From Polytrichum commune (taxonomy: Eukaryota > Streptophyta > Polytrichopsida > Polytrichales > Polytrichaceae): a stretch of DNA of 64,000 bases. Positions 3,215-34,863 of the stretch are shown piece by piece. A program made the translations under genes and the position numbers. The stretch spans positions 2,542,001 through 2,606,000 of the forward strand of contig OX485806.1 of assembly GCA_950295325.1 (NCBI GenBank). Reading direction: 5' to 3'. Each line of letters begins with the position of its first letter. The first letter of the stretch is position 1. The notes below the pieces were generated by a model that worked only from the letters and a program-made list of their open reading frames with translations, did not search any database and was not told the DNA's origin.

Positions 3215-3509
3215 TGAGGGTGATGTGTATGTTGTACGTTAATTAGCCAAAGGCTGATTTGGTCTTAGACAATCTTAACGGGCATGGCACAAAAAGATAA
3301 ATTTTTCCCTTACCCAAGTTCAAAAATTTATCCAAGGTCATGTCGATAGCATCGTCTATAGAAAGAGGGAGGGAGAATCATATGTCATCTTGGCTTTATA
3401 TGTGGACGATAACATTCTATATACTAACAATTTAGATTTTTTGAAGCATACTAAAAAGGTCTTATCTCAACAATTTGAAATGAAAGATTTTGGTGAAATG
3501 CATTAATGC
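3215..3509 (+). pseudogene. Ty1/copia reverse transcriptase, YVDD region
   Basis: Translation gives fragments including ALYVDDNILYTNN, where YVDD is the catalytic motif, and LSQQFEMKDFGEMH, the conserved copia EMKDLGE motif. A stop follows directly (TAA at 3504-3506). Several frame breaks occur upstream. The Ty3/gypsy insertion falls immediately after codons for C-L; coding resumes at 14509 with ALQVIRNRENRTIHLSQ. Confidence 0.8.
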
Positions 3510-3513
3510 CTAG

Positions 3514-3620
3514 TGTCGTGTAAACTAAGATCGTTAAACACAACAGATCGAGTGTCGTCGTCAACATCAATTAGCAAAATAAAATAGCAAACTAAAATGC
3601 TAAACAACCACCTCTTCAAG
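3514..3620. repeat. 107-bp direct repeat, outer copy, at the element's left end
   Basis: Starts TGTCGTGTAAAC and is identical over 107 bp to 4185-4291. The two copies bracket an inverted RNase H fragment and the 3' LTR. The outer copy abuts the CTAG target duplication, so it forms the actual integrated end in place of the LTR edge. Confidence 0.85.
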
Positions 3621-3632
3621 GCACCTCTAAAC

Positions 3633-3751
3633 AATCTAATTATTCTTCTTATGAAGGCGAGGCCTTGGCGGCCGTTTGGGCCATTGCACATTTTCGATCT
3701 TATTTGTATGGGCAAAAGTTTACTTTGGTGACTGATCATCAGCCTTTAAAA
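3633..3751 (+). pseudogene. Inverted fragment of the gypsy element's own RNase H
   Basis: About 119 bp encoding YEGEALAAVWAIAHFR and LVTDHQPLK in + orientation, opposite to the host element. It is nearly identical (one difference noticed, GATCG versus GGTCG) to the RNase H region at about 7198-7320. It lies between the outer 107-bp repeat and the 3' LTR, directly fused to the LTR edge TGAGGGTTGC. Confidence 0.8.
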
Positions 3752-4182
3752 TGAGGGTTGCTCTCTTCAAGCTTAAGAAACTAAAATGTCTCCTTACAAA
3801 GCTTAAGAAACTCTAAAATTCACACACAAGAGTCAAGCTATCTCTCACTCCACGAAGGGAGAATCCAAGAGTGCAAGTGGTGGAGAAAGAATGCAAAGGC
3901 TTTACTCATAATCTACTACACCATAGCCATGAGAAAGCAACAACAAGCTCTCTCTCTCTCAAAACACACTCACAAGACTTGACTTGACAACAATGGCAAG
4001 TCAAGAAGCCTTCCTCTCCATACAACCCCAATCCTAAGTGGAGTTCATCCATGGAGTGGATGAATAACTAATTAGGACTCTCAATGGAGTCCATTACTCA
4101 TCCAAACACACATGGACTCCTAATGGAGTCCATTTACTCCTAAATTGACGTGACTTAGCCCCCGATGTCACCTCACGTGACA
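3752..4182 (-). repeat. 3' LTR of the Ty3/gypsy element (431 bp)
   Basis: On the minus strand it runs TGTCACGTGAGG ... CAACCCTCA, with TG/CA ends. It matches 14074-14504 except for three transitions. No obvious polypurine tract precedes it on its internal side (4183 onward); the 107-bp repeat lies there instead. Confidence 0.9.
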
Positions 4183-4184
4183 GC

Positions 4185-4291
4185 TGTCGTGTAAACTAAG
4201 ATCGTTAAACACAACAGATCGAGTGTCGTCGTCAACATCAATTAGCAAAATAAAATAGCAAACTAAAATGCTAAACAACCACCTCTTCAAG
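4185..4291. repeat. 107-bp direct repeat, inner copy
   Basis: Identical to 3514-3620. It sits two bases inside the 3' LTR, where a polypurine tract would be expected. Confidence 0.85.
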
Positions 4292-4616
4292 TGCCCCCAC
4301 TAGCAGATAAGGAGCCCCTCCAATCGGCTAGGAACAAACACACTCATCGATAGAGTTGTTGAACATGATGAAGTTGTTGCTACATCTATACATATTCAAT
4401 TGGGTAGTGGTAATCTAAGGGATTAAACTCATGATTGAGAAAATAATCCAAGAACTGTAGGCTGGGTGCAATTTGAGCCCCATCCTTAATCGCCTTCAAC
4501 AATTTATGTTGAATTCTTGGATAACTCTTTCAATGTGATTTTCAATCCCATAAAATTTCCAACCAACTAAATAATAACTTCACTACTAAAATATGTGGTA
4601 AACATCCACAAAATCC
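4292..4616 (-). other. 3' untranslated part of the Ty3/gypsy element
   Basis: About 325 bp between the PHD-finger stop codon and the inner 107-bp repeat. AT-rich; no gene or clear signal is seen. Confidence 0.5.
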
Positions 4617-5204
4617 TCAATCATGACCATTAACGGCCACGGAATGAGAGGCTTTCCGACAACGATGACAAACCCAATTGCCAGAAGGAAGAGTCAAAAG
4701 GGGAGGTGTCAAACATGCCATGTGCCATCCACGTTGACATTGGTCGCACAATAACATTGTTGCAGCTCCTTTCTTCTCTCCACAAACATAACAAGGCAGA
4801 CCCTGTGGTACAACCGCCAACTCGGGATGCACAGAGCCGTCGATGGGAAGGTGACATGGAGCACAATTCTTTGAATGCTTACGACATTCCCGCCCATCCT
4901 TGCCTTCAAGCAATAATATACCACTTGGCAAGACATCTTCTACCCGCAAAATCGTGCGCCCAGCCTTGACATCCAATGCCGTAGGCGCCTCCCGTTGCAA
5001 GTAAACATAATCCCCCTTGGAAAATCTACGAACCTGAGGTCGATAAGCTCCACTGCGGATCCGGGCATACCGTAATGTATCACGATGTTGAGCAATATTT
5101 AAGTTCTCCATGGCCATAGGCATGGCCTTTTGGAAGAACGTTGCGCGGTCATGAAGACATTGAGCCCAAACATCTGGATCATCCAAGTTTACCACGGGAG
5201 CCAA
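4617..5204 (-). pseudogene. Integrase C-terminal domain plus C4HC3 PHD finger (end of pol)
   Basis: An open stretch of about 195 codons. The first part (APVVNLDDPDVW through RRFSKGDYVYLQRE) is the Ty3/gypsy integrase C-terminus, with the GDxVxL-like strand where the GPY/F-type domain usually lies. From about residue 137 a PHD finger follows: C-Y-V-C, then MLLCDQCQRGWHMACL, then NWVCHRC, giving the full C4HC3 zinc ligand set. PHD fingers usually read histone H3 tails; the LLCDQC...WHMACLTPPL pattern resembles fingers that bind unmodified H3K4, but binding is not proven. It ends about 24 residues after the finger. It is cut off from the integrase core by the insertion at 5219-6040, and there is a stop just upstream (TAA within GTGTAAGAG), so it has no start of its own and is a pol segment. 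Confidence 0.85.
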
Positions 5205-5218
5205 TTTCTCTTACACCG

Positions 5219-6040
5219 AGCTAGGTAAAATTGGTTCCCGTCTATTAAGAACCTCTCACCGGTTGGCAATTTGTGTCTTGACCACAAAATCTCAAAGTAA
5301 AGAATTGAAACCAACACCAATTTTATTTCTTCCTCTAAGTACAAACCGCAACCAAATAAAGTTTGGTCAACGAAGCTCTACCACCCGACCATAGGAGAGA
5401 GACAAAAAAGATCCTCTCTCCTCCCCCGAGCTTCCTTTTATGCCGAAGCACTACTTTTACTTTCTATATTTATATATAGTAAAAGTATTCTATTCATAGC
5501 TCTATCTCATAGTTCTACTATGAATCTTCTATCTATGGTTCTTCTAGAACCTTCTTTCATCTCTTATCTCAATTCCATTATTCCAATTGGAACTGTCTAA
5601 TTCCAATTGGATTCATCCATTCTTCTTTCTAGTTGGAACTGTCTAATTCCAACTAAATACATTCATCCTTCATTCCAGTTGGAACTGTCTAATTCCAACT
5701 TGGTTCATCCAACCTTTCTCTTAGTTGGAATTGTCTAATTCCAACTAGTCAATCTTCTAGTTGGAACTGTCTAATTCCAACTAGCTTTATCCATGGAGTG
5801 GTCTAACTCCTGTGCACCTCATCGAGAGTTGTCTAACTCATGTGCACTTGTTCTCACTTGGAATGGTCTAGTTCCAATGCACTAAATGCGGAGCTGTCTA
5901 ACTCCAGTGCACATGTTGTCAATCTGGAGTTGTCTTACTCCTTTCCATTCATCCTCAACCGAGAGTTGTCTAGCTCTCATCTTTTTCTGCTTACACACTG
6001 GCACATGTAGTTAGAATATTCCTTAATAATTCTAGTTACA
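5219..6040. mobile_element. 822-bp insertion in integrase with 8-bp target duplication, class unresolved
   Basis: Perfect duplications TTACACCG (5211-5218, 6041-6048) flank a segment that separates integrase LLYGR from PVVNLDD. On the minus strand it starts TGTAACTAGAAT. Features there look LTR-like: TATA-type text (TATATATAAATATAG), a second CATAAAAGG box, and an AATAAA near 5320. The other end (AGCTAGGTAAAATT on +) lacks the matching CA, and 8 bp is long for an LTR element. Only CTAG and AATT are shared by the two termini. Candidates are a solo LTR or a non-autonomous TIR element. It contains a hairpin array and no gene. Confidence 0.65.
5581..5979. repeat. Array of eleven short hairpins with constant GTCT loop core
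   Basis: Eleven inverted repeats occur at about 5582-5611, 5631-5654, 5677-5700, 5722-5747, 5756-5783, 5795-5810, 5825-5838, 5858-5876, 5890-5905, 5925-5941 and 5961-5978. Examples: AGTTGGAA-CTGTCTAA-TTCCAACT, GGAGT-GGTCTA-ACTCC, GAGTT-GTCT-AACTC, GAGAG-TTGTCTAG-CTCTC. The stem sequence changes from unit to unit with its partner strand changing in step, while the loop keeps GTCT. Two further inverted repeats without this loop (CATAGTTCTACTATG, GGTTCTTCTAGAACC) lie at 5507-5552. Confidence 0.85.
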
Positions 6041-6572
6041 TTACACCGTCCATACAAGAGTTGGTATGGACTATAGGATGCCAAAGATGCTTGCCTGCTG
6101 AAACGGTAACCCATTGCTATCCATGGTAACATCAAGTCCCAATCGCGATGGTTTCCATGAAGCAATCCATACTTCCGCAGACCGCGCTTAACCGTCTGAA
6201 CAACTCGTTCAGCTAAACCATCTGCCTCAGGGTGATCTCTGGAAGTTGTACGATGATCAATCAAAGCCTTGGTACACAAAGCCTCGAAAGATCCAAGAAA
6301 TTCTCTCCCTTGATCTGTTAACACCTCTGCAGGTGCTCCAAACCGTGCCAAAACTCGATCAAGAAATGCCATAGCCGCCAATTCTGAGGAATTTTGGGGA
6401 AGAGCCACGAGTTCAATCCACTTACTAAAATGCTCCACCATCACAAGCACATACTTGGAACCACGTGGAGTGATAGTAAGCGGTCCGGCAAAATCCAAAG
6501 ACCAACGATATCCCAAGCCCATAATAGGTAAAGGCTGAAGTTGAGGTGACAAAGTATTAAAATTTGACCTGA
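6041..6572 (-). pseudogene. Ty3/gypsy integrase catalytic core
   Basis: Encodes the DDE core: WSLDFAGPL (first D), VLTDQGREF (second D) and DHPEADGLAERVVQTVKR (E), with the spacing of retroviral-type integrases, then SPYQLLYGR just before the 822-bp insertion. It would join cDNA ends to target DNA. Its frame differs from the upstream RNase H/zinc-finger segment: a frameshift lies near 6572, between codons for CDRCQ and SNFNTLSPQ. The final codons after LLYGR run into the inserted DNA. Confidence 0.88.
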
Positions 6573-7429
6573 CACCGGTCACATACTTCATACCGAGAAA
6601 CATAAGTGGCAACCTGTTGATACATACCAGTCCACCAATATTGGTTGCGCAACATAGAGTGCGTCCTTCGCACTCCAAAATGTCCAAGCTCCTCGTGCAC
6701 TTGCCGCACCAAATAAGCTCTTTGATTTGGCCTTGGAACGATGCGCCTCGTTCCGTTCGGCCACACACGAAATAACAAGCTGTTTGCCCAACGAAACCTT
6801 GTTATCCGGTGACTAACTCTATCTCGCTCCATAGCAGATAGTCCAAGAGGAAATATCCCTTGTTGAAGTTTGTGCAAGACCGCCTGGTCTTCCCACACAT
6901 CACTAACAACGAGAGATTTATCAACCTCCTCATCCTGTTCTTCTACAAGGATCTCAGCAGCCAATTCCGACATCATTGTGAGATATGTGGCAGCATGCCA
7001 ACCCGACACTGCCTCACGATCACAATCTCCATGCCACCTGGCTCCAGTTAAATCCTCATCTGAAGGACTTGGATTGCGAGACAATCCGTCTGCATCCAAG
7101 TTAGCAATTCCTGCTCGGTGAACAACTTCAAAATCATATTCCTGAAGTAACAATGCCCACCTAGCAAGTTTCCCGGTGAGCTTATCTGATTCCATAAGCC
7201 ATTTTAAAGGCTGATGATCAGTCACCAAAGTAAACTTTTGCCCATACAAATAAGGTCGAAAATGTGCAATGGCCCAAACGGCCGCCAAGGCCTCGCCTTC
7301 ATAAGAAGAATAATTAGATTCAGCACTATTATTGCTTCTAGATGCATAAGCCACCACATATTCCTTTCCCTCTTCATCTTTCTGTGTCAATACCGCTTCC
7401 AATCCCACTGCACTCCAATCCGTGTGCAA
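6573..7429 (-). pseudogene. Ty3/gypsy RNase H and integrase zinc-binding domain
   Basis: Begins HTDWSAVGLEAVLTQ (RNase H first aspartate). ESNYSSYEGEALAAVWA (glutamate) and TLVTDHQPLKWL (second aspartate) follow: a complete Ty3-type RNase H. After a spacer comes HEELGHFGVRRTHSMLRN ... CDRC, the HHCC zinc-binding domain of integrase. The segment is in the same frame as reverse transcriptase but separated from it by a TAA at 7430-7432 directly before L-H-T-D. It ends in a frameshift near 6572. Confidence 0.88.
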
Positions 7430-7432
7430 TTA

Positions 7433-8569
7433 AAAAGCTCTAGACACATCCGGGCGTCGAAGTACTGGCGCTGAACCGAGCCTCTGCTTCAATGTATGAA
7501 ATGCCTGTTGTTGTTCCTGACTCCAAATCCATGGTTGGTCTTTCCCCGTGAGAATGGTAAGAGGTTTGGCAATCAAACTAAAGTTTTTGACAAACCTCCT
7601 ATAATAATTTGTCAATCCTAGAAATGCACGAAGCCGTGGTACATCACTAGGTGCGGGAATTTTGTGCAAAGCATCCACCTTCGCCTGTTGCACACCAAGA
7701 CCGCCAGGAACAATCATGTGGCCTAAATAGGGCAATTGATCATGGAAAAACTTACATTTTCCATGATGTAAACGGAGTCCCCACCGTTGAAGTCGTTCAA
7801 ATACCGCTTGCAAATGTCTCACATGATCCTGTGGACTATTACTAAAGATGATAACATCATCAATGTAACATCTAGCAAACGGCAAACCAACCAATAATTG
7901 GTCCATCACCCGCTGAAATTCAGCTGGTGCATTCTTGAGACCAAATGGCAGAAATTTCCAATGATAAAGTTGATCCTTGCCATCTTTATCAATTCCCCAA
8001 AATGCGGCCTTCACCCGATCACCCAACAACAAAGGTAATTGATGATAACCAGACCTCAAATCCAGAGTGCTGAAGATTCTAGAAAATCCCAGTGCATCAA
8101 ACAACTCCTCCGGCATCGGCATTGGATATCGATCCGACTTGGTCTTGCGGTTGACTGGACGATAATTACCACACATCCGTTTTTCCGTCCAGTTGCCAAA
8201 GATATCATTCTTTGACGGCATAACCGTGGCACAAGCATACTCTCCATTGGAGAGTTCAATCAATTCCGCTGCAAATAACTGTTGACATCGAGTTTGAACA
8301 CCCAACCTTTCAGAGGTACTAAGTCTGTACGGCCGTCTGAAAATAGGGTGGTCGTCCTCGAGTTGAATACGAACAGGTTTACCTTTATATCCTTCAAGAT
8401 CATGAAGACTAAAGGCAAAACAATTACGGTAAGAGCGAATAAATGCCCGTACCTTTCGTGCTTCGGCACCAGTAAGCTTTGGCCCGACTTCAATTGGCCA
8501 ATCGTCAAACTCCGTGGTTTCCTTCTTCATAGCAGGATTGCCAATTGGTGCCAGCACAGCCTGTGATTG
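7433..8569 (-). pseudogene. Ty3/gypsy reverse transcriptase
   Basis: About 375 codons with the RT motifs in order: RMCGNYRPVNRKTKSDRYPM, FSTLDLRSGYHQLPL (first catalytic D), FLPFGLKNAPAEFQRVMD, RCYIDDVIIFS (YIDD catalytic pair), LGHMI, LRAFLGLTNYYRRFVKNFS. It copies element RNA into DNA. It is in the same frame as the upstream Gag-protease-methyltransferase frame and linker, and is entered only after a TAG at 8570-8572. It ends at TAA 7430-7432, which interrupts the junction to RNase H, so this copy cannot make a complete RT-RNase H without suppression. Confidence 0.9.
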
Positions 8570-8572
8570 CTA

Positions 8573-8938
8573 GTCCGTGGAGAGGGCAACACCTTTGCCC
8601 CCATCATCTGCACTTGAATCCAAATGCGTATCCTCTCCACTACAATCAGTTTGTGTAGCTAAATAGCTACCCACATATGAAGTATCACCAAGAAATAGAA
8701 GTGGAAACATTTTATGGGCCTCCAACTTTCCAAACTCTTGGGCCAAAGCCGAAAAAACACGTTGGGCTCGAAGCTCTTCCGCAACATGAAGTTTCAAAGG
8801 AAATAATCCCTCGGTGTCATTGACCTCAATGTGATCCTTGGATTGCGGCTCCATTGCCCCCTGACCATTGTTCTTTGCCCTCAGAGTAAGCAATTGGTCA
8901 TCCATACGTTGTTGAGCAACAAGACAAATTCCAATTAT
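8573..8938 (-). pseudogene. In-frame linker between methyltransferase and reverse transcriptase
   Basis: About 120 codons continuing the same frame after the TAG at 8939-8941 (IIGICLVAQQRMDDQLLTL ... GGKGVALSTD), up to a second TAG at 8570-8572. The first residues look like the last helix of the methyltransferase fold, so the upstream stop probably truncates an originally longer frame. The rest is acidic and low in known motifs. The second stop is followed by CAA TCA, which fits the plant-virus leaky-stop context UAG-CAR-YYA. Confidence 0.7.
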
Positions 8939-11900
8939 CTACACAATGCTATTAAGATCCATAGCTTGCCCCAATAGGAAACGTCTCTGACCTTCCTGAA
9001 GCCCGTGAGCAGCCGTGGTACCTGTAAGAAAACCCATGGCGCGTTCCCGCTCATCTGCCGTAGGCTCCTCATAAGTTTGGGATTTTGAATTCCAAACCAT
9101 GCCAGGTCCACGAGATCGAAATGCAAAAGACTGTGGATATGTCACAAAAGTAGGTAGTGCACCTTTCGGAATTCCCACCTTGTTAATTAATGCAAATGGC
9201 AAGGTGTCATCCTTGGTAACTGCCAAGGAAACACGATGATCATTTAAAATGTCATCCACCTTGCGATCCATAAGGCGGGGAATGCGGGCAATCGCCGTTG
9301 AAAGCACCCAAGGTGATACCAAGTTGGTCCAAAACCAGCGAGGCCGATGAGCAAAGGATCCCAAAGATGCAGCATCTAGAAATGTTGGAGTACCCAGAAT
9401 TTGGTTAATGTACTCACCATCCTTCCCCACTTTGTGCCGGGTATCACCCAATAATGGTACATTTTCGAAAATGTACCCTGGCGGAGTTGATTGGTGGGTA
9501 AACCACCATTGCGTCAATCGCATAAAATCCGCAAACAAACTAGACCTAGGATCATCCAATCCCTGGCCAGTTCCTGCCCGCGAATGGCCTTGACAAGTCC
9601 ATCCTGCAATAATCAAATCCACGTGGCCCAACCTTCTCAAATCCTCATCACTAATCATAGTGACATCTTGAGGAAGTTGACCACAACATCCATGAATGGC
9701 AGAGGCTGACAATTGTGCGGGGTATCTCAACAACAATTGTTGGATGTGGTGTCGGACGGCTCTGTTGGCTGCATACCCATTGTCCACATGAATATATCGC
9801 CAAACTGTAATTCCAGCTTCCAACACTGCCGCCAAACCTGTGCCAATGCCTCCAAAGATCTCCACAAGGACAATACCTTCAGGTGATGGTTGCCAACGAA
9901 TGGGTTGAGCAAAAGAAAATGAGGATGAAGTTGGGGGTGCCTCTCCAAGCTCCAAATCCGCTACAATGTGTCGACAATGGTCGGATAACTCCTTAGGAGT
10001 TCGCCATGGTGGAGGTGGGTCCTTGAAATGTCGAGTAGGAATTTGAAAAGATGGTAAAAATTGTTGTTCTGCCGCATTACAAGTGTAGTCCATTGTTTCC
10101 TGCAATAAAACTGGAGCACAAGGCAAATCTGCAACTAAACCGCTGCAACCAAACATTGCCTCCGCAACCATAGTCATAGCAGTGGCTGCAAATGTGACGG
10201 GAATAAATACCTTCCTGCCATCTCCAGTGGACCATCCCGGTCTAATCCATGCCTCTTCCGTCCAATTATCTAAACCAAAGCCAAGTGGGTAAAGAGCTTG
10301 CTGACCAACAAGTATATCATAGTTGGTAGCATTAGTAACAACACACTTCATTGACAAATGAGTGTAAGTAGGCCCTGCCCCCACATGAAAAATCAAACGT
10401 AGAGGTGCCTTGGTGTAACCTGTTGCACGTTCAGTGCCCCCTACTGAAGTCACAATAGTGAATGGACAAGGATCCAAGCTTGCTGGCGTCAATCCAAGAC
10501 TGTCAGCAAGTCCTTTGCCAATCATAACTGGTTGAGCACCGGAATCCATCATAACTCTCAGTGGTGTAGCACGGATAGTGGGCATATCCGTGCGTGAAAC
10601 GACAAACAAAGATTTGTCGTTCATCAGCCGTACAACTCCAGGTTGCAAATTATGCCGTTCGCGAGCAGGCCTTGCAGAAATGTCTGCAAGATATGCCGCT
10701 CCCGACGCATAATTCGAAAATGACGTATCCACTGCTGAAATTGATGCTGGAGGAATATCAGTTTGCTTACCAAAAGCAATGATCGCCGCATCCGCAAGAC
10801 CCGCTCGCAAATTGGCTAAGTCCTCCACCTCCTCAGCCACATGTACGTCAACAACAGCTTGGGATACTTGAAGGGATGGCAAATCCGCCTTACCTTCTAA
10901 CATTCTCCCAGCTAAATGAAAAACTGCAGCAGGCTTCAAATCCAGAGCCATCAACTCCGAACTCGTGAAAATTGGCATATGGAGAATTTTATATGCCAAT
11001 GCCTGCGTAACATCCTTCGAGATGGAATCCCCATCTCGCAAAGGTACAGGGTTTTTAGCCCCAACAACAGTGGTGTCTACCAATCCAAATGAAAGAGGTA
11101 AACGTGCTTGACCAATTTGATCCGCTGGACCGGCATGGCGAGGATGTGGCACCTCGTTGCTACCACCACTCGTGGAAGCCACCGCATCTGCCAATGTTTG
11201 TGAGCGAGTAGAAGCCGCCGCCACCACCTCTCCAGATGCCCCAAACATATACATGTCCGACCCCGAGGTGCCACCACCCGCATGCGGCTCAGAAATTTGA
11301 GCAAAAGATGCAGAAGATTTGAGCTTTTGCTCAAGCTCTGCCACCTTAGCCTCAAGACTCTGCTCCCTTGGAGATTTGCCAGTGACATAACTGGCAGGCC
11401 GCATCTCAGGATGAAGTTGGAAATAATGATCCACATCGTGATTAGTGCCACCACAATGGTTACATTTCAATTGTCTCTTCTTAGAATTGTCCCCTGCCTT
11501 CACTGGTTCTTTCTTTTGCTTTAATTTTCCCAAAGGCTGGGTTTTCTTCTTCTTAGGACAATTGGGATCATTCTTCGAATGACCAGCTTCTCCACAACCC
11601 CAACAATGCAAAATCTTTTGCTCCTTAACAGTTTGAGTCTCAGCTAAACTACTAGTAGCTGTGACAATTCTTCTTGATTTCGTATTCTCTGTCATCCAAG
11701 ATACCATGTCTGTGGCATCGTGTTGACAGAGAGCTCGATCACATCTCTCAACCACGGCAAACGCTTGTGCAAGCGTAGCTTTGCCTTCGTAGTCAAGGAT
11801 AATCAGGTGATGCCAACTCAAGTAGTCGCTTGTCAATCTTAGACAAAAAGATTTTGACAAGCTGACTCTCAGCAAAAACACCTCCCGACTCAACAGCAAA

Positions 11901-12616
11901 GCGTGCGAGTCGCGTATACATGGTCCGTGGAGTGTCATCCTTCTCTCGGCGGAAATCCTGAATGCCTGCATCTGGTCTCGCCGAAATCCACCATACTCCA
12001 CCTCCAAATGTGCGACAAATTCAGCAAGGGGATTAAATGGAGGTGGTGGACCAACAGCCGTCAATGCTGCCTGTGTAGCACGTGCCATCCGTGAAAGGGT
12101 AGCCGTGCTACTGCCAGCCACCATTGGCCCAAATGCCAGTTCTTGGTCCTCAGACTCCTCCAGTGGATCCTCCTCCTTTAAGGTAGGTGGAGCTAAGGTG
12201 GCAATCGCCCCATCTTTAAGGGTTGAAATAAGTTCAACCCGGGCCTCCCAATACTGCTCCACCTCCCGAAGTTGTCGCTGATGACCCTCTGTCCATCGTT
12301 CGTAAGTTTGGAGTGCCTCATACTCCAAATGCTGAGGCAGAAGTTCAAAGGCATACCAATCATTGAAATTGGAAGACCTTTGGCGTTTCTCCTTAATCCA
12401 GGTACGAAACCGGAGTTTCCAATCGGGCAAGGAAATGCCCCCATCTCGACCTGAGAACCGATCACGCACTGAATTGTGGCGATCGTCCTCCATTTCGTCG
12501 AACGTGCCGACACTCCAAATCCGAAGCCTACTAGTAGTGTCCAACGCCGAAATAGGCTCAAAAGCCTCGTTGGTATCTACCTCTGGCTCAAGATTTGTGG
12601 TATGCACGTCCTCCAA
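8939..12616 (-). CDS. Gag - zinc knuckles - aspartic protease - C5 DNA methyltransferase polyprotein
   Basis: A 1225-codon open frame. N-terminal Gag-like region (~1-320); two zinc knuckles, CWGCGEAGHSKNDPNC (~337) and CNHCGGTNH (~383); protease with MDSGA active site (~690) and YDILVGQQAL. From ~914 a C5 cytosine methyltransferase: motif I VEIFGGIGTG; motif IV AGWTCQGHSRAG (catalytic Cys ~1008); motif VI FENVP (~1051); motif VIII HRPRWFW (~1088); a target-recognition stretch; motif IX ERERAMGF; motif X RRFLLGQAMDLNSIV. The RERAMGF...RRFLLG ending resembles DNMT3/DRM-type enzymes. Motif IV has Thr where Pro is nearly universal. The frame's first codon is TTG; the first ATG is about codon 42, so the true start is uncertain. 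Capture of such enzymes by retrotransposons is known; self-methylation of the element's DNA is a plausible role, not shown. Confidence 0.9.
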   Translation of the reverse strand: MEDVHTTNLEPEVDTNEAFEPISALDTTSRLRIWSVGTFDEMEDDRHNSVRDRFSGRDGGISLPDWKLRFRTWIKEKRQRSSNFNDWYAFELLPQHLEYEALQTYERWTEGHQRQLREVEQYWEARVELISTLKDGAIATLAPPTLKEEDPLEESEDQELAFGPMVAGSSTATLSRMARATQAALTAVGPPPPFNPLAEFVAHLEVEYGGFRRDQMQAFRISAERRMTLHGPCIRDSHALLLSREVFLLRVSLSKSFCLRLTSDYLSWHHLIILDYEGKATLAQAFAVVERCDRALCQHDATDMVSWMTENTKSRRIVTATSSLAETQTVKEQKILHCWGCGEAGHSKNDPNCPKKKKTQPLGKLKQKKEPVKAGDNSKKRQLKCNHCGGTNHDVDHYFQLHPEMRPASYVTGKSPREQSLEAKVAELEQKLKSSASFAQISEPHAGGGTSGSDMYMFGASGEVVAAASTRSQTLADAVASTSGGSNEVPHPRHAGPADQIGQARLPLSFGLVDTTVVGAKNPVPLRDGDSISKDVTQALAYKILHMPIFTSSELMALDLKPAAVFHLAGRMLEGKADLPSLQVSQAVVDVHVAEEVEDLANLRAGLADAAIIAFGKQTDIPPASISAVDTSFSNYASGAAYLADISARPARERHNLQPGVVRLMNDKSLFVVSRTDMPTIRATPLRVMMDSGAQPVMIGKGLADSLGLTPASLDPCPFTIVTSVGGTERATGYTKAPLRLIFHVGAGPTYTHLSMKCVVTNATNYDILVGQQALYPLGFGLDNWTEEAWIRPGWSTGDGRKVFIPVTFAATAMTMVAEAMFGCSGLVADLPCAPVLLQETMDYTCNAAEQQFLPSFQIPTRHFKDPPPPWRTPKELSDHCRHIVADLELGEAPPTSSSFSFAQPIRWQPSPEGIVLVEIFGGIGTGLAAVLEAGITVWRYIHVDNGYAANRAVRHHIQQLLLRYPAQLSASAIHGCCGQLPQDVTMISDEDLRRLGHVDLIIAGWTCQGHSRAGTGQGLDDPRSSLFADFMRLTQWWFTHQSTPPGYIFENVPLLGDTRHKVGKDGEYINQILGTPTFLDAASLGSFAHRPRWFWTNLVSPWVLSTAIARIPRLMDRKVDDILNDHRVSLAVTKDDTLPFALINKVGIPKGALPTFVTYPQSFAFRSRGPGMVWNSKSQTYEEPTADERERAMGFLTGTTAAHGLQEGQRRFLLGQAMDLNSIV

Positions 12617-12782
12617 GTAATCTGGTGATGGAGATCAATAATATCGGCTCCTAGTTTTCACCATAAAATAATCACTTGAGTACCTGCAACTATCTACAAG
12701 GTAATGGCAACCTGCACCTGTTGCGGGCTATCTAAATGGCAATCCCTTGGCAAATGCCAAGTGTTTATGCCCCCAGAATTCC

Positions 12783-13110
12783 AAAATTGTGCAAAGGTTT
12801 GAGATTGGTAATTAAAATGAAAAATCAGCGTTGAAAAGGCTCATTTCCAAGGTGATTATGGACTCCAATCAACAAACTAAGTGCACCAATGGACTCCTAG
12901 GAAGATTTCACACAAATTAGGCTCAAATTTCACTCCGTTCGGAGTTAATTTGCTCCCAAAAACAAAAATCAGCGTTGAAATTAATAATTTCAGCAATGAT
13001 TTTGAATTCCAATCAACAATCCAATTACACCATTGGATTCCTTGGCAAATTTCACACAATATAGGCTCAAATTTCACTCCGTTCGGAGTTAGTATGCCCC
13101 CAAATTTGAA
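12783..13110. repeat. Two diverged copies of a ~150-bp direct repeat in the gypsy leader
   Basis: Both units contain AGGCTCAAATTTCACTCCG plus TTCGGAGTTA, preceded by a TCCAATCAACAA-type stretch and ATTTCACACAA. They lie at about 12830-12960 and 12975-13105. They are part of the leader between 5' LTR and Gag. Confidence 0.75.
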
Positions 13111-13189
13111 CCTCAAAGTTTGTGAGAATTGGATGCCAAGTTTGAAAGGTGAAAGTAAAAATGTGAAAAAAAATAAAAAAAATAAAAAA

Positions 13190-13412
13190 ATAACTTAATT
13201 AACTTAAATGAATTAACTTAATTAATTTAATTTAACTCAACCTAACTTAATTAACTTAAACTAATGAACCTAACCTAATTAAGCTAACCTAATTTAATTA
13301 ACTAACTTAATTAACTAATTAAGTTAACTAACTTAATTAAATAACTAACTTAATTAAGGTAACCTAATTAGCTAACTAACCTAATTAACTAATTAACCTA
13401 ATTAACCTTTAA
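13190..13412. repeat. TTAATTAACTTAA low-complexity tract
   Basis: About 220 bp made almost only of TAACTTAATTAAC-like text in the gypsy leader; no coding signal. Confidence 0.8.
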
Positions 13413-13440
13413 GTGAAAGCTTACCTTCAAAAGGGGAAAG

Positions 13441-13680
13441 GGCGGCCAGGCTGGCGCCGCCCGCCACCTGGGCCAGGCTGGCGCCGCCCGCCACCTGGGC
13501 CAGGCTGGCGCCGCCCGCCACCTGGGCCAGGCTGCCGCCCGCCCGCCACCTGGGCCAGGCTGCCGCCCGCCCGCCACCTGGGCCAGACTGCCGCCCGCCC
13601 CCGGCCCGGCCCGCTGCCACCTCGCCACGGGGCCCGGCTGGCGCCGCCCGCCCCCGGCCCGGGATTTTGCCGCCCCCGGT
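13441..13680. repeat. GC-rich minisatellite in the gypsy leader
   Basis: Tandem units of about 27-28 bp, each containing GCCACCTGGGCCAGGCTG and a GCCGCCCGCC block, at least five copies, then degenerate CCCGCCCCCGGCCCG text. It is a dense CpG cluster in otherwise AT-rich surroundings. Long frames across it are compositional artefacts. Confidence 0.85.
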
Positions 13681-13689
13681 TCAGAATTG

Positions 13690-14073
13690 GAGCTCCAGGA
13701 GCTCCAAGAGTGTCCGTGGAGCTCCGGAGCTCAAAATTTTTTTTATAAAAAATTCGGATTTTAAGTTTGGTTTGTGTTTGTTTGTAAATTTAACAAATTA
13801 AACTTTGCTTTTACAAATTGCAAGCAAGAATGATGTGACTTGAGAATCTTGAGACCAAATGGAATCTCAAGATTCAACCATCAACACTTGAAGAAAACAC
13901 AAAGAGACCACAAAAGAAAAATGGGAAGATTTCTCTCAAAATCTTCTTGAGGGTTGCAAGAAATGACAAACTAAGCTTTCAAACACTTGTATCACTCATT
14001 TACTCTCAATACTGGGCCATTCTAGCTCAGAAATACAACCAAAAATGAAAAATTTGAACATTGTTGTCAAGTA
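13690..14073 (-). other. Proximal leader of the Ty3/gypsy element
   Basis: About 380 bp next to the 5' LTR. On the minus strand the base after the LTR is followed by ACTTGACAACAATG, where a primer-binding site is expected; it does not match the usual initiator-tRNA-Met site TGGTATCAGAGC. No gene is seen. Confidence 0.5.
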
Positions 14074-14504
14074 TGAGGGTTGCTCTCTCCAAGCTTAAGA
14101 AACTAAAATGTCTCCTTACAAAGCTTAAGAAACTCTAAAATTCACACACAAGAGTCAAGCTATCTCTCACTCCACGAAGGGAGAATCCAAGAGTGCAAGT
14201 GGTGGAGAAAGAATGCAAAGGCTTTACTCATAATCTACTACACCATAGCCATGAGAAAGCAACAACAAGCTCTCTCTCTCTCAAAACACACTCACAAGAC
14301 TTGACTTGACAACAATGGCAAGTCAAGAGGCCTTCCTCTCCATACAACCCCAATCCTAAGTGGAGTTCATCCATGGAGTGGATGAATAACTAATTAGGAC
14401 TCCCAATGGAGTCCATTACTCATCCAAACACACATGGACTCCTAATGGAGTCCATTTACTCCTAAATTGACGTGACTTAGCCCCCGATGTCACCTCACGT
14501 GACA
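14074..14504 (-). repeat. 5' LTR of the Ty3/gypsy element (431 bp)
   Basis: Minus-strand TGTCACGTGAGG ... CAACCCTCA, flanked outside by the target duplication CTAG. It differs from the 3' LTR at three transitions. It contains a CT-rich run (CTCTCTCTCTC on +) and inverted ATGGAGTCC/GGACTCC segments. Confidence 0.92.
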
Positions 14505-14508
14505 CTAG

Positions 14509-15387
14509 CTTTACAAGTCATACGCAATAGAGAAAATAGAACCATCCATTTGAGTCAACAAAAATATATAGAAAATATTCTTGAGAGGTTTAATATGCAA
14601 AAGTGTAAACCTTCATTTACACCCATGGAGGCGAATGTAAAACCATCAAGAGACATGTGTCCCCAATCACTCGAAGAAAAACAATTCATGGCCAAAATTC
14701 CATATTGAAGAGTGGTGGGATGTCTTGTATACGCCATGATTTGTACCCAACCAGATATTGCCTTTGCGGTTGAAATTGTAAGCCAATATTTAGAGGACCC
14801 GGGTGTCAAGTATTGCAGTGTCATCAAGTGAATTATGAGGAACCTACATGATATTGCTACTCATGGAGTACACTATGGTCCAAGTACCAATGGAGAAGAC
14901 ATTGAAGTGGTTGGGTATTGCGGCGCCGATTGGGCGGGTGATATGGGTGGTTGTAAATCAACAACCGTGTATTGTTTTCTATTTGGTCAAGGGGCCTTTA
15001 GTTGGCATAGTTAAAAAACAACCAACGGTGACCCTTTCAAGTACGGAGGCGGAATTATACATGGCTTCAACAAATGCAACTAAAGAAGCTCTATGGCTTC
15101 AACAATTTTGTAAGGATATTGGATTTAACCAAGTTAAAGCAACTACCATATTTTGTGACAACCGAAGTTGTATCGCTTTAACCCAAAATCCTAAGTTCCA
15201 TGCAAGAACAAAACACGTGGAATTTCATCATCACTTTGTACAAGAAAAAATACTTAGTGGAGCAGTGGAAATCAAAAACTGTTGTACAAAAGAACAATAT
15301 GCGGATTTCCTTACAAAAAGTTTACCTCAACCTAAACATGAGTTATGTGAACTTAAGCTTGGAGTTACAAGTACAAAAGTAGAGTAG
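14509..15387 (+). pseudogene. Ty1/copia RT C-terminus and RNase H fragment
   Basis: Continues the copia frame after the gypsy insertion: ALQVIRNRENRTIHLSQQKY, ERFNMQKCKPSFTPME, CLVYAMICTQPDIAFAV, then RNase H with VTLSSTEAELYMASTNATKE, ALWLQQFCKDIG, CDNRSCIALTQNPKFHARTKH and EQYADFLTKSLPQPKHE. The last motifs are classic copia RNase H. Stops near 14706 and 14830 and frame changes before 14990 show decay; the final 120 codons remain open to the natural stop near 15387. Confidence 0.88.
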
Positions 15388-33470: not shown

Positions 33471-34863
33471 CTCGGGGGGTGCACTGTACTAAACATGTAC
33501 GAGTATACGTGAGTGCACAGGAAGGGTATTGATTTGGACCTTGCCGTATTACGTATACATATGGTATACATGTTATAATTTATAGTTACGTACATATATG
33601 GAAGGCCTTTAAAAAATATACAATAATTGTACTTGTATGGTACTGTTATTATACTACATATCATAAGTTTTCATATTGGATGAAATTAGGATTAACTAGG
33701 ATTAAAGATTTTCGTTAGCAACCTTATAGGGTAGTATGAACCATGTACAAGGTGTCAAGGTAATATCGGGGAAAGAGGCAGTATTAGGGTTTTGAAATGA
33801 TTCGTTCAGCTCAAAGTAACAAGGACCCTTTTCCCCTCCCATCCCTAGGTTTTGTTTTCTTTTTTTGTCGGGTGCTGAAGGTTTTTGTTTTCTCTTTTCG
33901 CATAGCCTGCTTCTTTTGCCGACAACTACTTCATTTTTCCTTCTTTCACCTGTTGCTCCAGCGCTTCTCAGCGTCCCTACGGTTACTGCCGCCGTGGGAA
34001 TCACCGAAAGTCCTGACATTGTCATGGCCTCATTCTGAAATTCCCTCTCTATAAAATGCAAAGTCAGTTGTGGCTTATGTAATGGTAGGGGAGTCTAGAA
34101 ATTTTAAAAATACACTTGTTAGTCAATTGAATGGCAATCCTTCTTTGTCTAAAGATCGGTTGACTCGAATTAAATCTAGTATATTATATATGAAGCCTAA
34201 ACTCCCGAGTGTTGGAAACCATGACACTTTGTTAAAGCTTGGTTGTGACTGTGGTGTGTGTTTTTTGAACACACCTGAAGCTAAAACTGTGAAAAAACGA
34301 GGTAGGCCAAAAAAATCTACTCGAGTTAAGGTTTGGTTTGTTGGGAGAGTTTATAGGATGCGGAGGAAGTTTGATAATCGTTGGGTGGAGTATAGGGATC
34401 CAATTGACTTGATGGACCGTCCATCAAACGTGGAGATTGGTTTATGTTGGTATCAAAAAGGGGCTAACAACAAGTGGACCTATGATCTTACTGATCATTT
34501 GATGGTAGACTTAGAGACAATAATTGCATTGGCTACAATGACATATATTGGTGAATCAAATGTTTATGAGTTACATCTGGGAGATGAAAAAGTTTTCAAC
34601 GACTTTGCTGATGAAAGCTAGGATATTTTGTTATACATATTATAGGGGTTGATTATTGTTCAAAGTATATTTGTATACTTATGTTAATGACTATATATGA
34701 ATGGATGTTTTTTTGTGTATACATATTGTCACTTGTATATTTATTGTTGCAATTGTATGTGTATTACTTCATTTCACAAAAAATAACTTGTATATAGGGG
34801 GTTTTTAGAGTATGCAGTGAACGCACGTGATTCTAGGTTTTAATGAAAGGTGCACCCCCCGAG
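33471..34863 (+). mobile_element. DNA transposon of unassigned family, 1393 bp, CTCGGGGGGTGCA ends, carrying an AT-hook gene
   Basis: Inverted ends CTCGGGGGGTGCA / TGCACCCCCCGAG are exact. An 8-bp target duplication CAATTCGG is perfect (33463-33470, 34864-34871). It encodes one intact 179-codon frame (34082-34621) and no recognisable transposase. A truncated relative of its left 160 bp is at 40603-40764. MITEs with CTCGGGGGG/CCCGGGG-type ends and 8-bp duplications at 1308, 15490 and 53369 look like members of the same superfamily. An 8-bp duplication fits hAT, P or Zisupton-like superfamilies; the ends do not match a family I can name. Confidence 0.87.
34082..34621 (+). CDS. AT-hook protein encoded inside the CTCGGGGGG transposon
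   Basis: A 179-residue frame from the first ATG (MVGESRNFKN). The frame stays open a few codons upstream, and the AGTCAG before it could be an acceptor, so a 5' exon is possible. It contains a minor-groove AT-hook, KKRGRPKKS, at about residue 72, preceded by a cysteine cluster (CDCGVC). A basic/aromatic stretch follows (VGRVYRMRRKFDNRWVEYRD, then GLCWYQKG and KWTYDLTD) that could be a small beta-barrel of Tudor or chromo type, and an acidic C-terminus (HLGDEKVFNDFADES). No DDE or HUH nuclease motif is visible. Being the only intact frame in the element, it may be a DNA-binding accessory factor of the transposon or captured host sequence. Function not known. Confidence 0.65.
   Translation: MVGESRNFKNTLVSQLNGNPSLSKDRLTRIKSSILYMKPKLPSVGNHDTLLKLGCDCGVCFLNTPEAKTVKKRGRPKKSTRVKVWFVGRVYRMRRKFDNRWVEYRDPIDLMDRPSNVEIGLCWYQKGANNKWTYDLTDHLMVDLETIIALATMTYIGESNVYELHLGDEKVFNDFADES

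Follow-up and report, generated by a model that had tools for sequence, protein, structure and literature searches.

A decayed copy from a high-copy Ty3/gypsy family of Polytrichum commune encodes a predicted DNMT3-type methyltransferase and a PHD finger

A silencing enzyme carried by a retrotransposon is a puzzle, as methylation normally works against such elements. The closest described system is KnitGypsy-Dnmt3 of the charophyte Klebsormidium nitens, which the text of de Mendoza et al. (2018; PMC5890265) presents as a Gypsy long terminal repeat (LTR) element with a DNMT3-type, non-rearranged methyltransferase (MTase) in its coding region and under purifying selection. The same text describes retrotransposon-encoded cytosine MTases from dinoflagellates, SymbioDIRS-Dnmt3 and SymbioLINE-Dnmt, the former being CG-active in yeast (PMC5890265), and a passage of PMC12344493 places DNMT3s in LTR Copia and DIRS elements. 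Here, we describe a Ty3/gypsy element, of a kind that de Mendoza et al. (2018; PMC5890265) already reported, within 64,000 nucleotides of the Polytrichum commune genome (C4:2542001-2606000 of the 408-Mb assembly; hereafter the window). It is a decayed member of a high-copy family in which a predicted DNMT3-type MTase is combined with a PHD finger.

The element shows a pair of LTRs and the order reverse transcriptase (RT), RNase H, integrase, which assigns it to Ty3/gypsy. Its reading frame at 8939-12616 of the minus strand encodes 1225 aa. An earlier note on this DNA had reported zinc knuckles, a DSGA site and the MTase motifs I, IV, VI, VIII, IX and X in order, with RT, RNase H and integrase downstream. 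We located all of the former within 8939-12616, obtained Pfam matches for the latter and confirmed the reported difference of 3 in 431 bp between the LTRs. The PHD finger, the leaky stop and the self-priming-like site described below do not appear in that note. The features of the element, including its open reading frame 1 (ORF1), are as follows:

3514-14504, minus: whole Ty3/gypsy element; joining the flanks with the CTAG duplication restores the copia RT frame
14074-14504, minus: 5' LTR, 431 bp, TG...CA, with 3 mismatches against 3752-4182
14304-14317, minus: part of the LTR with complementarity to the primer binding site
14059-14072, minus: self-priming-like primer binding site, 14 nt, reverse-complementary to the LTR interior
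8942-12634, minus: ORF1 as present here, from stop to stop, with gag, zinc knuckles, aspartic protease and MTase
11796-12020, minus: gag stretch with its family-like reading in another frame (compensated frameshift in this copy); the frame-0 reading resembles the gag of P0001 and P0003
11411-11605, minus: two zinc-knuckle-like motifs (11558-11605 and 11411-11464)
10292-10576, minus: retroviral-type aspartic protease, DSGA at 10529-10552; PF13650 E 4e-4 and PF13975 E 0.0016, both below the curated Pfam cut-offs
8942-9904, minus: predicted DNMT3-type C5-cytosine methyltransferase domain, motifs I-X linear; Thr precedes the catalytic Cys in this copy
8939-8941, minus: early in-frame stop in this copy, immediately past the MTase
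8573-8938, minus: ORF1 tail, part of ORF1 as read in relatives
8564-8572, minus: in-frame UAG CAA UCA, leaky stop of the tobacco mosaic virus type at the ORF1/RT boundary
7433-8569, minus: RT, YIDD at 7856-7867; PF00078 E 1.1e-29
7430-7432, minus: in-frame stop that separates RNase H from RT in this copy
6560-7429, minus: RNase H and integrase zinc-binding domain; PF17917 E 4e-36, PF17921 E 3e-15
5980-6801, minus: integrase core, shifted to another frame in this copy; PF00665 E 2e-14
5243-6045, minus: 803-bp insertion in the integrase, with a GACGG duplication at 6046-6050 and 5238-5242
4620-5210, minus: C-terminal part of the integrase and PHD finger (C4HC3, 4659-4793); PF00628 E 6.8e-11
3752-4182, minus: 3' LTR, paired with 14074-14504, 3 of 431 bp different
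3514-3751, minus: 3' end, rearranged in this copy, with an RNase H fragment in inverted orientation and a repeat of the 107 bp at 4185-4291

The window protein matches the Pfam profile DNA_methylase with 38.2 bits (E 1.5e-9; cut-off 22), the match spanning only profile positions 48-120 of 324. The linear order of the six motifs and an S-adenosylmethionine-methyltransferase fold are those of a C5-cytosine methyltransferase. Its closest solved relatives are DNMT3 enzymes and the motif order is not of the rearranged DRM type; as judged from sequence and fold comparison, the domain is DNMT3-type. We aligned it with 27 of the 34 proteins from our first search for relatives (alignment A1), and the catalytic Cys and the Glu of the ENV motif are invariant in all 28 rows. 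A1 omits P0023, P0025-P0028, P0032 and P0034, of which P0023 and P0025 aligned in the MTase without the motif IV stretch. Among the MTase translations from the P. commune genome itself, FENV is kept in 50 of 52 distinct ones, six that duplicate others being excluded.

A scan of the genome with PF00145 gave 123 scored matches among 352 candidates, all above the cut-off, and a search with the window MTase yielded at least 128 copies (128 scored of 567 candidates) that are 79-100% identical and spread over all seven large contigs, which make up 406 of the 408 Mb; both counts are lower bounds and the two lists overlap. Fifteen of the 128 scored copies lie in a 1386-aa frame with no stop within the match, and copies with an open ORF1 are present in the genome. 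The earlier note had named the lack of a Pfam match and a domain found in a single copy as the outcomes that would speak against it. The match is present, and a chance insertion of the MTase into one copy is ruled out by the at least 128 MTase-bearing copies. Searching with the LTR, we scored 40 matches of 804 candidates, among them ten same-strand pairs including that of the window, which measure ~9.6-10.8 kb from outside to outside (about 9.6-10.0 kb for the nine others). Since these pairs recur elsewhere in the genome and further domains and LTRs flank the MTase, the element is real and the MTase lies inside it. Two subfamilies can be distinguished, with RTs about 93-97% and about 84-90% identical to the window RT, respectively (L027 and L037, with broken RTs, were set aside).

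Pairwise Nei-Gojobori estimates of the ratio of nonsynonymous to synonymous divergence (dN/dS) show past purifying selection on the MTase across the family. These estimates employ the open copies, i.e., 16 MTases and 8 RTs of 29 rows; the pairs are not independent, L016/L024 and L022/L025 each repeat one place, and L022/L025 is present twice in the MTase set. dS was defined for 89 of the 120 MTase pairs, the other 31 being saturated. Median dN/dS of the MTase was 0.31 at dS 0.1-0.2 (24 pairs), 0.28 at 0.2-0.4 (16 pairs) and 0.11 above 0.8 (29 pairs). The corresponding medians for the RT were 0.20 at dS 0.1-0.2 (6 pairs) and 0.04 above 0.8 (12 pairs).

Between MTase and RT, and in the MTase frame, 24 of 27 distinct copies carry UAG-CAR-YYA (CAA-UCA, CAA-UUA or CAG-UUA), the exceptions being L034, L035 and L037; MTase and RT share one frame in 25 of the 29 listed rows. 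UAG-CAR-YYA is given as the readthrough motif of tobacco mosaic virus in passages of PMC2754532. From the position of the UAG we infer that the MTase belongs to the Gag-side product, and RT, integrase and PHD finger to a rarer readthrough product.

The PHD finger follows the integrase in 98 of the 118 relatives that have both MTase and integrase, including members of both domain architectures described below. In a second alignment of 28 rows (A2; 27 hand-picked proteins and the window), seven of its eight zinc ligands do not vary. Among its matches in the PDB are the fingers of PHF12, DPF2, CHD4, PHF21A, KDM5, AIRE and ATXR5. The PHD fingers of most such proteins read the unmodified tail of histone H3. 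No Pfam match to a chromodomain was obtained in the integrase region of the window, and the element is not classed as a chromovirus. We also observed four other gypsy polyproteins (P0226, P0233, P0253 and P0259) with a PHD match and no MTase match in Pfam, and four proteins among 259 collected with the PHD finger between RT and integrase.

With about even confidence, we propose the following course for the family. ORF1 encodes gag, protease and the DNMT3-type MTase, and ORF2, which would be reached by readthrough of the leaky UAG, encodes RT, RNase H, integrase and PHD finger. Because it lies on the Gag side of the leaky stop, the MTase would be made in Gag-like amounts and packaged into the virus-like particle, where it would methylate the element's own complementary DNA (cDNA) before or during integration. 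The PHD finger of the integrase would steer insertion to H3K4-unmethylated chromatin, and new copies would land pre-methylated in silent chromatin. The DNMT3 fold, which is close to that of chromatin-targeted enzymes, an H3-tail-reader-type PHD finger in the same element and the presence of at least 128 copies would suit an MTase that acts in the nucleus, on the chromatin near copies of any age or on host DNA in general, and restrains or camouflages the family. We regard this as somewhat unlikely, since the MTase sits on the Gag-protease side of the leaky stop, apart from the PHD-bearing integrase; in the chlorophyte-type relatives, its place inside pol, between RNase H and integrase, also suits a particle.

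Several observations weigh against methylation of the cDNA in the particle and PHD-guided integration. Packaging and the ligand of the PHD finger are inferred from position and similarity, and no PHD finger was found in 20 of the 118 relatives with MTase and integrase, some of which end near its expected start. By pairwise dN/dS, the MTase evolves faster than the RT, and its closest pairs (dS <0.02, 5 pairs) show a ratio near 1, i.e., no constraint, as is expected from decay after insertion. Considering CpG depletion as a candidate trace of self-methylation, we did not see it: the observed/expected ratio of CpG is 0.63-0.69 in 30 loci, that of the window included, against 0.55 for the window, and the copies are not CpG-poor beyond their surroundings. 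Differences of the C-to-T type amount to 0.032 at CG, 0.030 at CHG and 0.024 at CHH, a mild excess only, and other differences are likewise highest at CG (0.016 vs 0.013). Thus, the small CG excess in both classes leaves no strong mark of heritable self-methylation. Furthermore, KnitGypsy-Dnmt3 gave no methylation in yeast, a result that its authors call inconclusive in the text of PMC5890265.

This yeast result and the lack of CpG depletion would also fit a domain retained because it binds nucleic acids, methylates RNA or supports the structure of the polyprotein, rather than for DNA methylation. So would the fact that the Pro of motif IV is not universal: of 175 MTase protein matches, 110 read PCQ and 31 ECQ, ten carry other triplets and in 24 the pattern was missing. 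Such a role is nevertheless unlikely, given the invariant catalytic Cys and ENV Glu in A1, the nearly constant FENV in the genome's own translations and the DNMT3-like fold.

A first search for relatives in other genomes gave 34 matches, the closest with 65-73% identity on contigs of jgi, ena and lgn sources; Marchantia polymorpha, with 36-41% identity over the protease-MTase query, and Closterium were also found. A second search returned 110 proteins, including ones from Chlamydomonas eustigma, Cymbomonas and Monoraphidium. In total, 259 proteins were collected, 175 of them with an MTase, which lies after the RT in 97, before it in 27 and in a protein without RT in 51. Protease-MTase-RT is the usual order in streptophyte rows, so the earlier note's view that the placement between protease and RT is unusual is not supported. 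Chlorophyte-type relatives carry the MTase between RNase H and integrase. Related MTase-bearing families in liverworts and green algae indicate that the MTase is a long-kept component of the element and not a chance insertion.

We computed an RT tree from 102 of 181 RT pieces (279-residue core, at least 230 aa) and an MTase tree from 82 of 147 pieces (at least 270 aa). In the RT tree, one branch (SH-aLRT 95) splits off 18 rows labelled as lacking an MTase, which include gypsy elements of angiosperms and animals; this label takes in ORF2-only proteins, whose ORF1 is possibly a separate protein, and is therefore not evidence that an MTase is absent. The MTase-after-RT rows form a clade together with one unlabelled fragment (100), and the RT of the window shares a group (88) with those of two Klebsormidium proteins (P0169 and P0200), Closterium, Marchantia and Calypogeia, the nearest named rows being from liverworts. 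For the MTase tree, a row lacking RT took its label from its neighbours, a protease upstream counting as before-RT and an integrase downstream as after-RT. Its outgroup consists only of DNMT3A/3B pieces, and the root on the long branch to these is weak. All 64 MTase-after-RT rows fall into one clade (95) that is nested among the MTase-before-RT rows. This clade also holds one MTase-only row and P0086, a row labelled before-RT in which 660 residues separate protease from MTase; a search of these residues with the RT profile found nothing.

A single old capture of the MTase and a single relocation would be consistent with the trees, which prove neither and fit vertical descent as well as spread between lineages. 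Tentatively, one ancient Ty3/gypsy clade of green plants may have gained a DNMT3-type writer and a PHD reader before the split of chlorophytes and streptophytes, or spread between them, and moved the writer once; the pair would deposit self-methylated copies in silent chromatin. The two fixed positions of the MTase, and the lack of strong support for joining the two groups in the RT tree, could instead reflect two or more separate captures of related MTases, which gave rise to the protease-MTase-RT and the RNase H-MTase-integrase architectures. This appears somewhat unlikely, as a PHD finger follows the integrase in members of both architectures, the MTases of both are nearer to each other than to DNMT3A, and the after-RT rows are nested as one clade among the before-RT rows.

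Had the element recently and independently taken up the DNMT3 of its present host, a possible source would be at hand. We found a multi-exon DNMT3-like host gene with linear motif order and PCQ in motif IV (L074; G000:C7:33954500-33960500). This gene is distant from the element MTase (best match 24 residues, E 0.02), close MTases occur in retroelements of Marchantia, Closterium and algae, and the two Klebsormidium RTs nest in the RT clade of the window. We therefore rejected this highly improbable explanation. Of the earlier note's proposal of a related or independent capture, the first part stands, and the second is not supported, as the Marchantia, Closterium and chlorophyte MTases belong to one family. 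With regard to a virus or phage origin of the MTase, a scan of viral contigs gave 15 loci, all short matches of 30-53%, from which we draw no conclusion.

The window copy itself is decayed, as shown by its broken reading frames and altered motif IV. About 70 gag codons (about 12020-11796) make sense only in another frame when compared to relatives, and a stop just past motif X ends the frame where relatives read through for ~120 residues more. RT, RNase H and integrase are interrupted by a stop, a frameshift and the 803-bp insertion. Thus, the single open frame noted earlier exists, yet it contains the displaced gag codons, ends prematurely and is followed by a broken RT-integrase part. Motif IV reads TCQ in this copy, the only WTC among the 52 distinct own-genome translations, 48 of which have WPC at that site. 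The element had also been called young, and the low LTR divergence does indicate a recent insertion; given the broken frames, it does not indicate a functional copy. The suggestion that this copy could methylate DNA is not supported, given its frames and its motif IV, and the copy performs none of the methylation or targeting steps proposed above.

The element sits inside the RT of an already damaged copia-like element (3400-3513 and 14509-15387). Its target-site duplication is CTAG (3510-3513 and 14505-14508), only 4 bp next to a rearranged 3' end, and restores the copia RT frame only if the rearranged 3' pieces are counted in the element. These two pieces lie beyond the 3' LTR; one is 119 bp in inverted orientation that match the RNase H of the element at 99% identity, and the other repeats the 107-bp stretch 4185-4291 without a difference. 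The rearranged end possibly arose by template switching or self-integration at birth. The 803-bp insertion (5238-6050 including GACGG) carries 46-bp tandem repeats and is perhaps a solo LTR of another family.

In seven of seven copies read, all of the window's LTR type, a stretch of 13-16 nt just after the 5' LTR can pair with the interior of the LTR; 4 of 20000 shuffles of the window's stretch reach 12 nt. This complementarity points to self-priming of the Tf1 kind. The bases just past the 13 shared nt vary among the seven copies. In the leader between 5' LTR and gag, GC-rich tandem repeats with units of 27-28 bp (13444-13672) and a tandem duplication of 144 bp, 80% identical (12814-13101), were observed. 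Elsewhere in the window, the plus strand has a 188-aa open frame at 34055-34621, and a scan of the window for transfer RNAs and Rfam families gave no transfer RNA and no match at gathering score.

In a large family that has been under selection, encodes the MTase together with Gag and bears a histone reader on its integrase, the purpose of the MTase becomes testable. Relatives exist in Marchantia polymorpha, a transformable laboratory plant. Among known systems, chromoviruses are likewise Ty3/gypsy elements with a chromatin reader at the C-terminus of the integrase, a chromodomain there and a PHD finger here; to our knowledge they lack an MTase. Tf1/sushi-type elements are self-primed from a primer site complementary to their own LTR or transcript start. 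We know of none with an MTase. Such a complementary primer site is common to them and the window family, in which self-priming is putative. RIRE2, a gypsy element of rice, is a readthrough candidate like the window family, and the passages on it in PMC2754532 mention no MTase. SymbioDIRS-Dnmt3 and SymbioLINE-Dnmt are DIRS and LINE elements and are described as unrelated to the Gypsy elements of K. nitens in the text of PMC5890265. The nearest system remains KnitGypsy-Dnmt3, and two Klebsormidium RTs (P0169 and P0200, the latter with a PHD finger) lie in the window's RT clade, a comparison that covers the RTs. According to the text of PMC5890265, the repeats of KnitGypsy-Dnmt3 are DIRS-like (Fig. 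4 legend) and its DNMT lies in the Pol ORF, whereas the window family has ordinary direct LTRs and an MTase that ends ORF1 before the leaky stop. A word search of the main text on KnitGypsy-Dnmt3 for 'PHD' found no occurrence (PMC5890265). In our full-text searches, outside of which lie most subscription journals and bioRxiv, no title or opening of an abstract reported land-plant or chlorophyte members of the family, or elements of this kind with a PHD finger. At the family level, our analysis adds members from land plants and chlorophytes, a PHD finger, a leaky stop that leaves the MTase with Gag, ordinary LTRs along with a self-priming-like site, and two alternative MTase positions; some of these may also apply to KnitGypsy-Dnmt3. 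Taken together, our analysis extends the phenomenon from one charophyte and dinoflagellates, as described in the text of PMC5890265, to land plants and chlorophytes.

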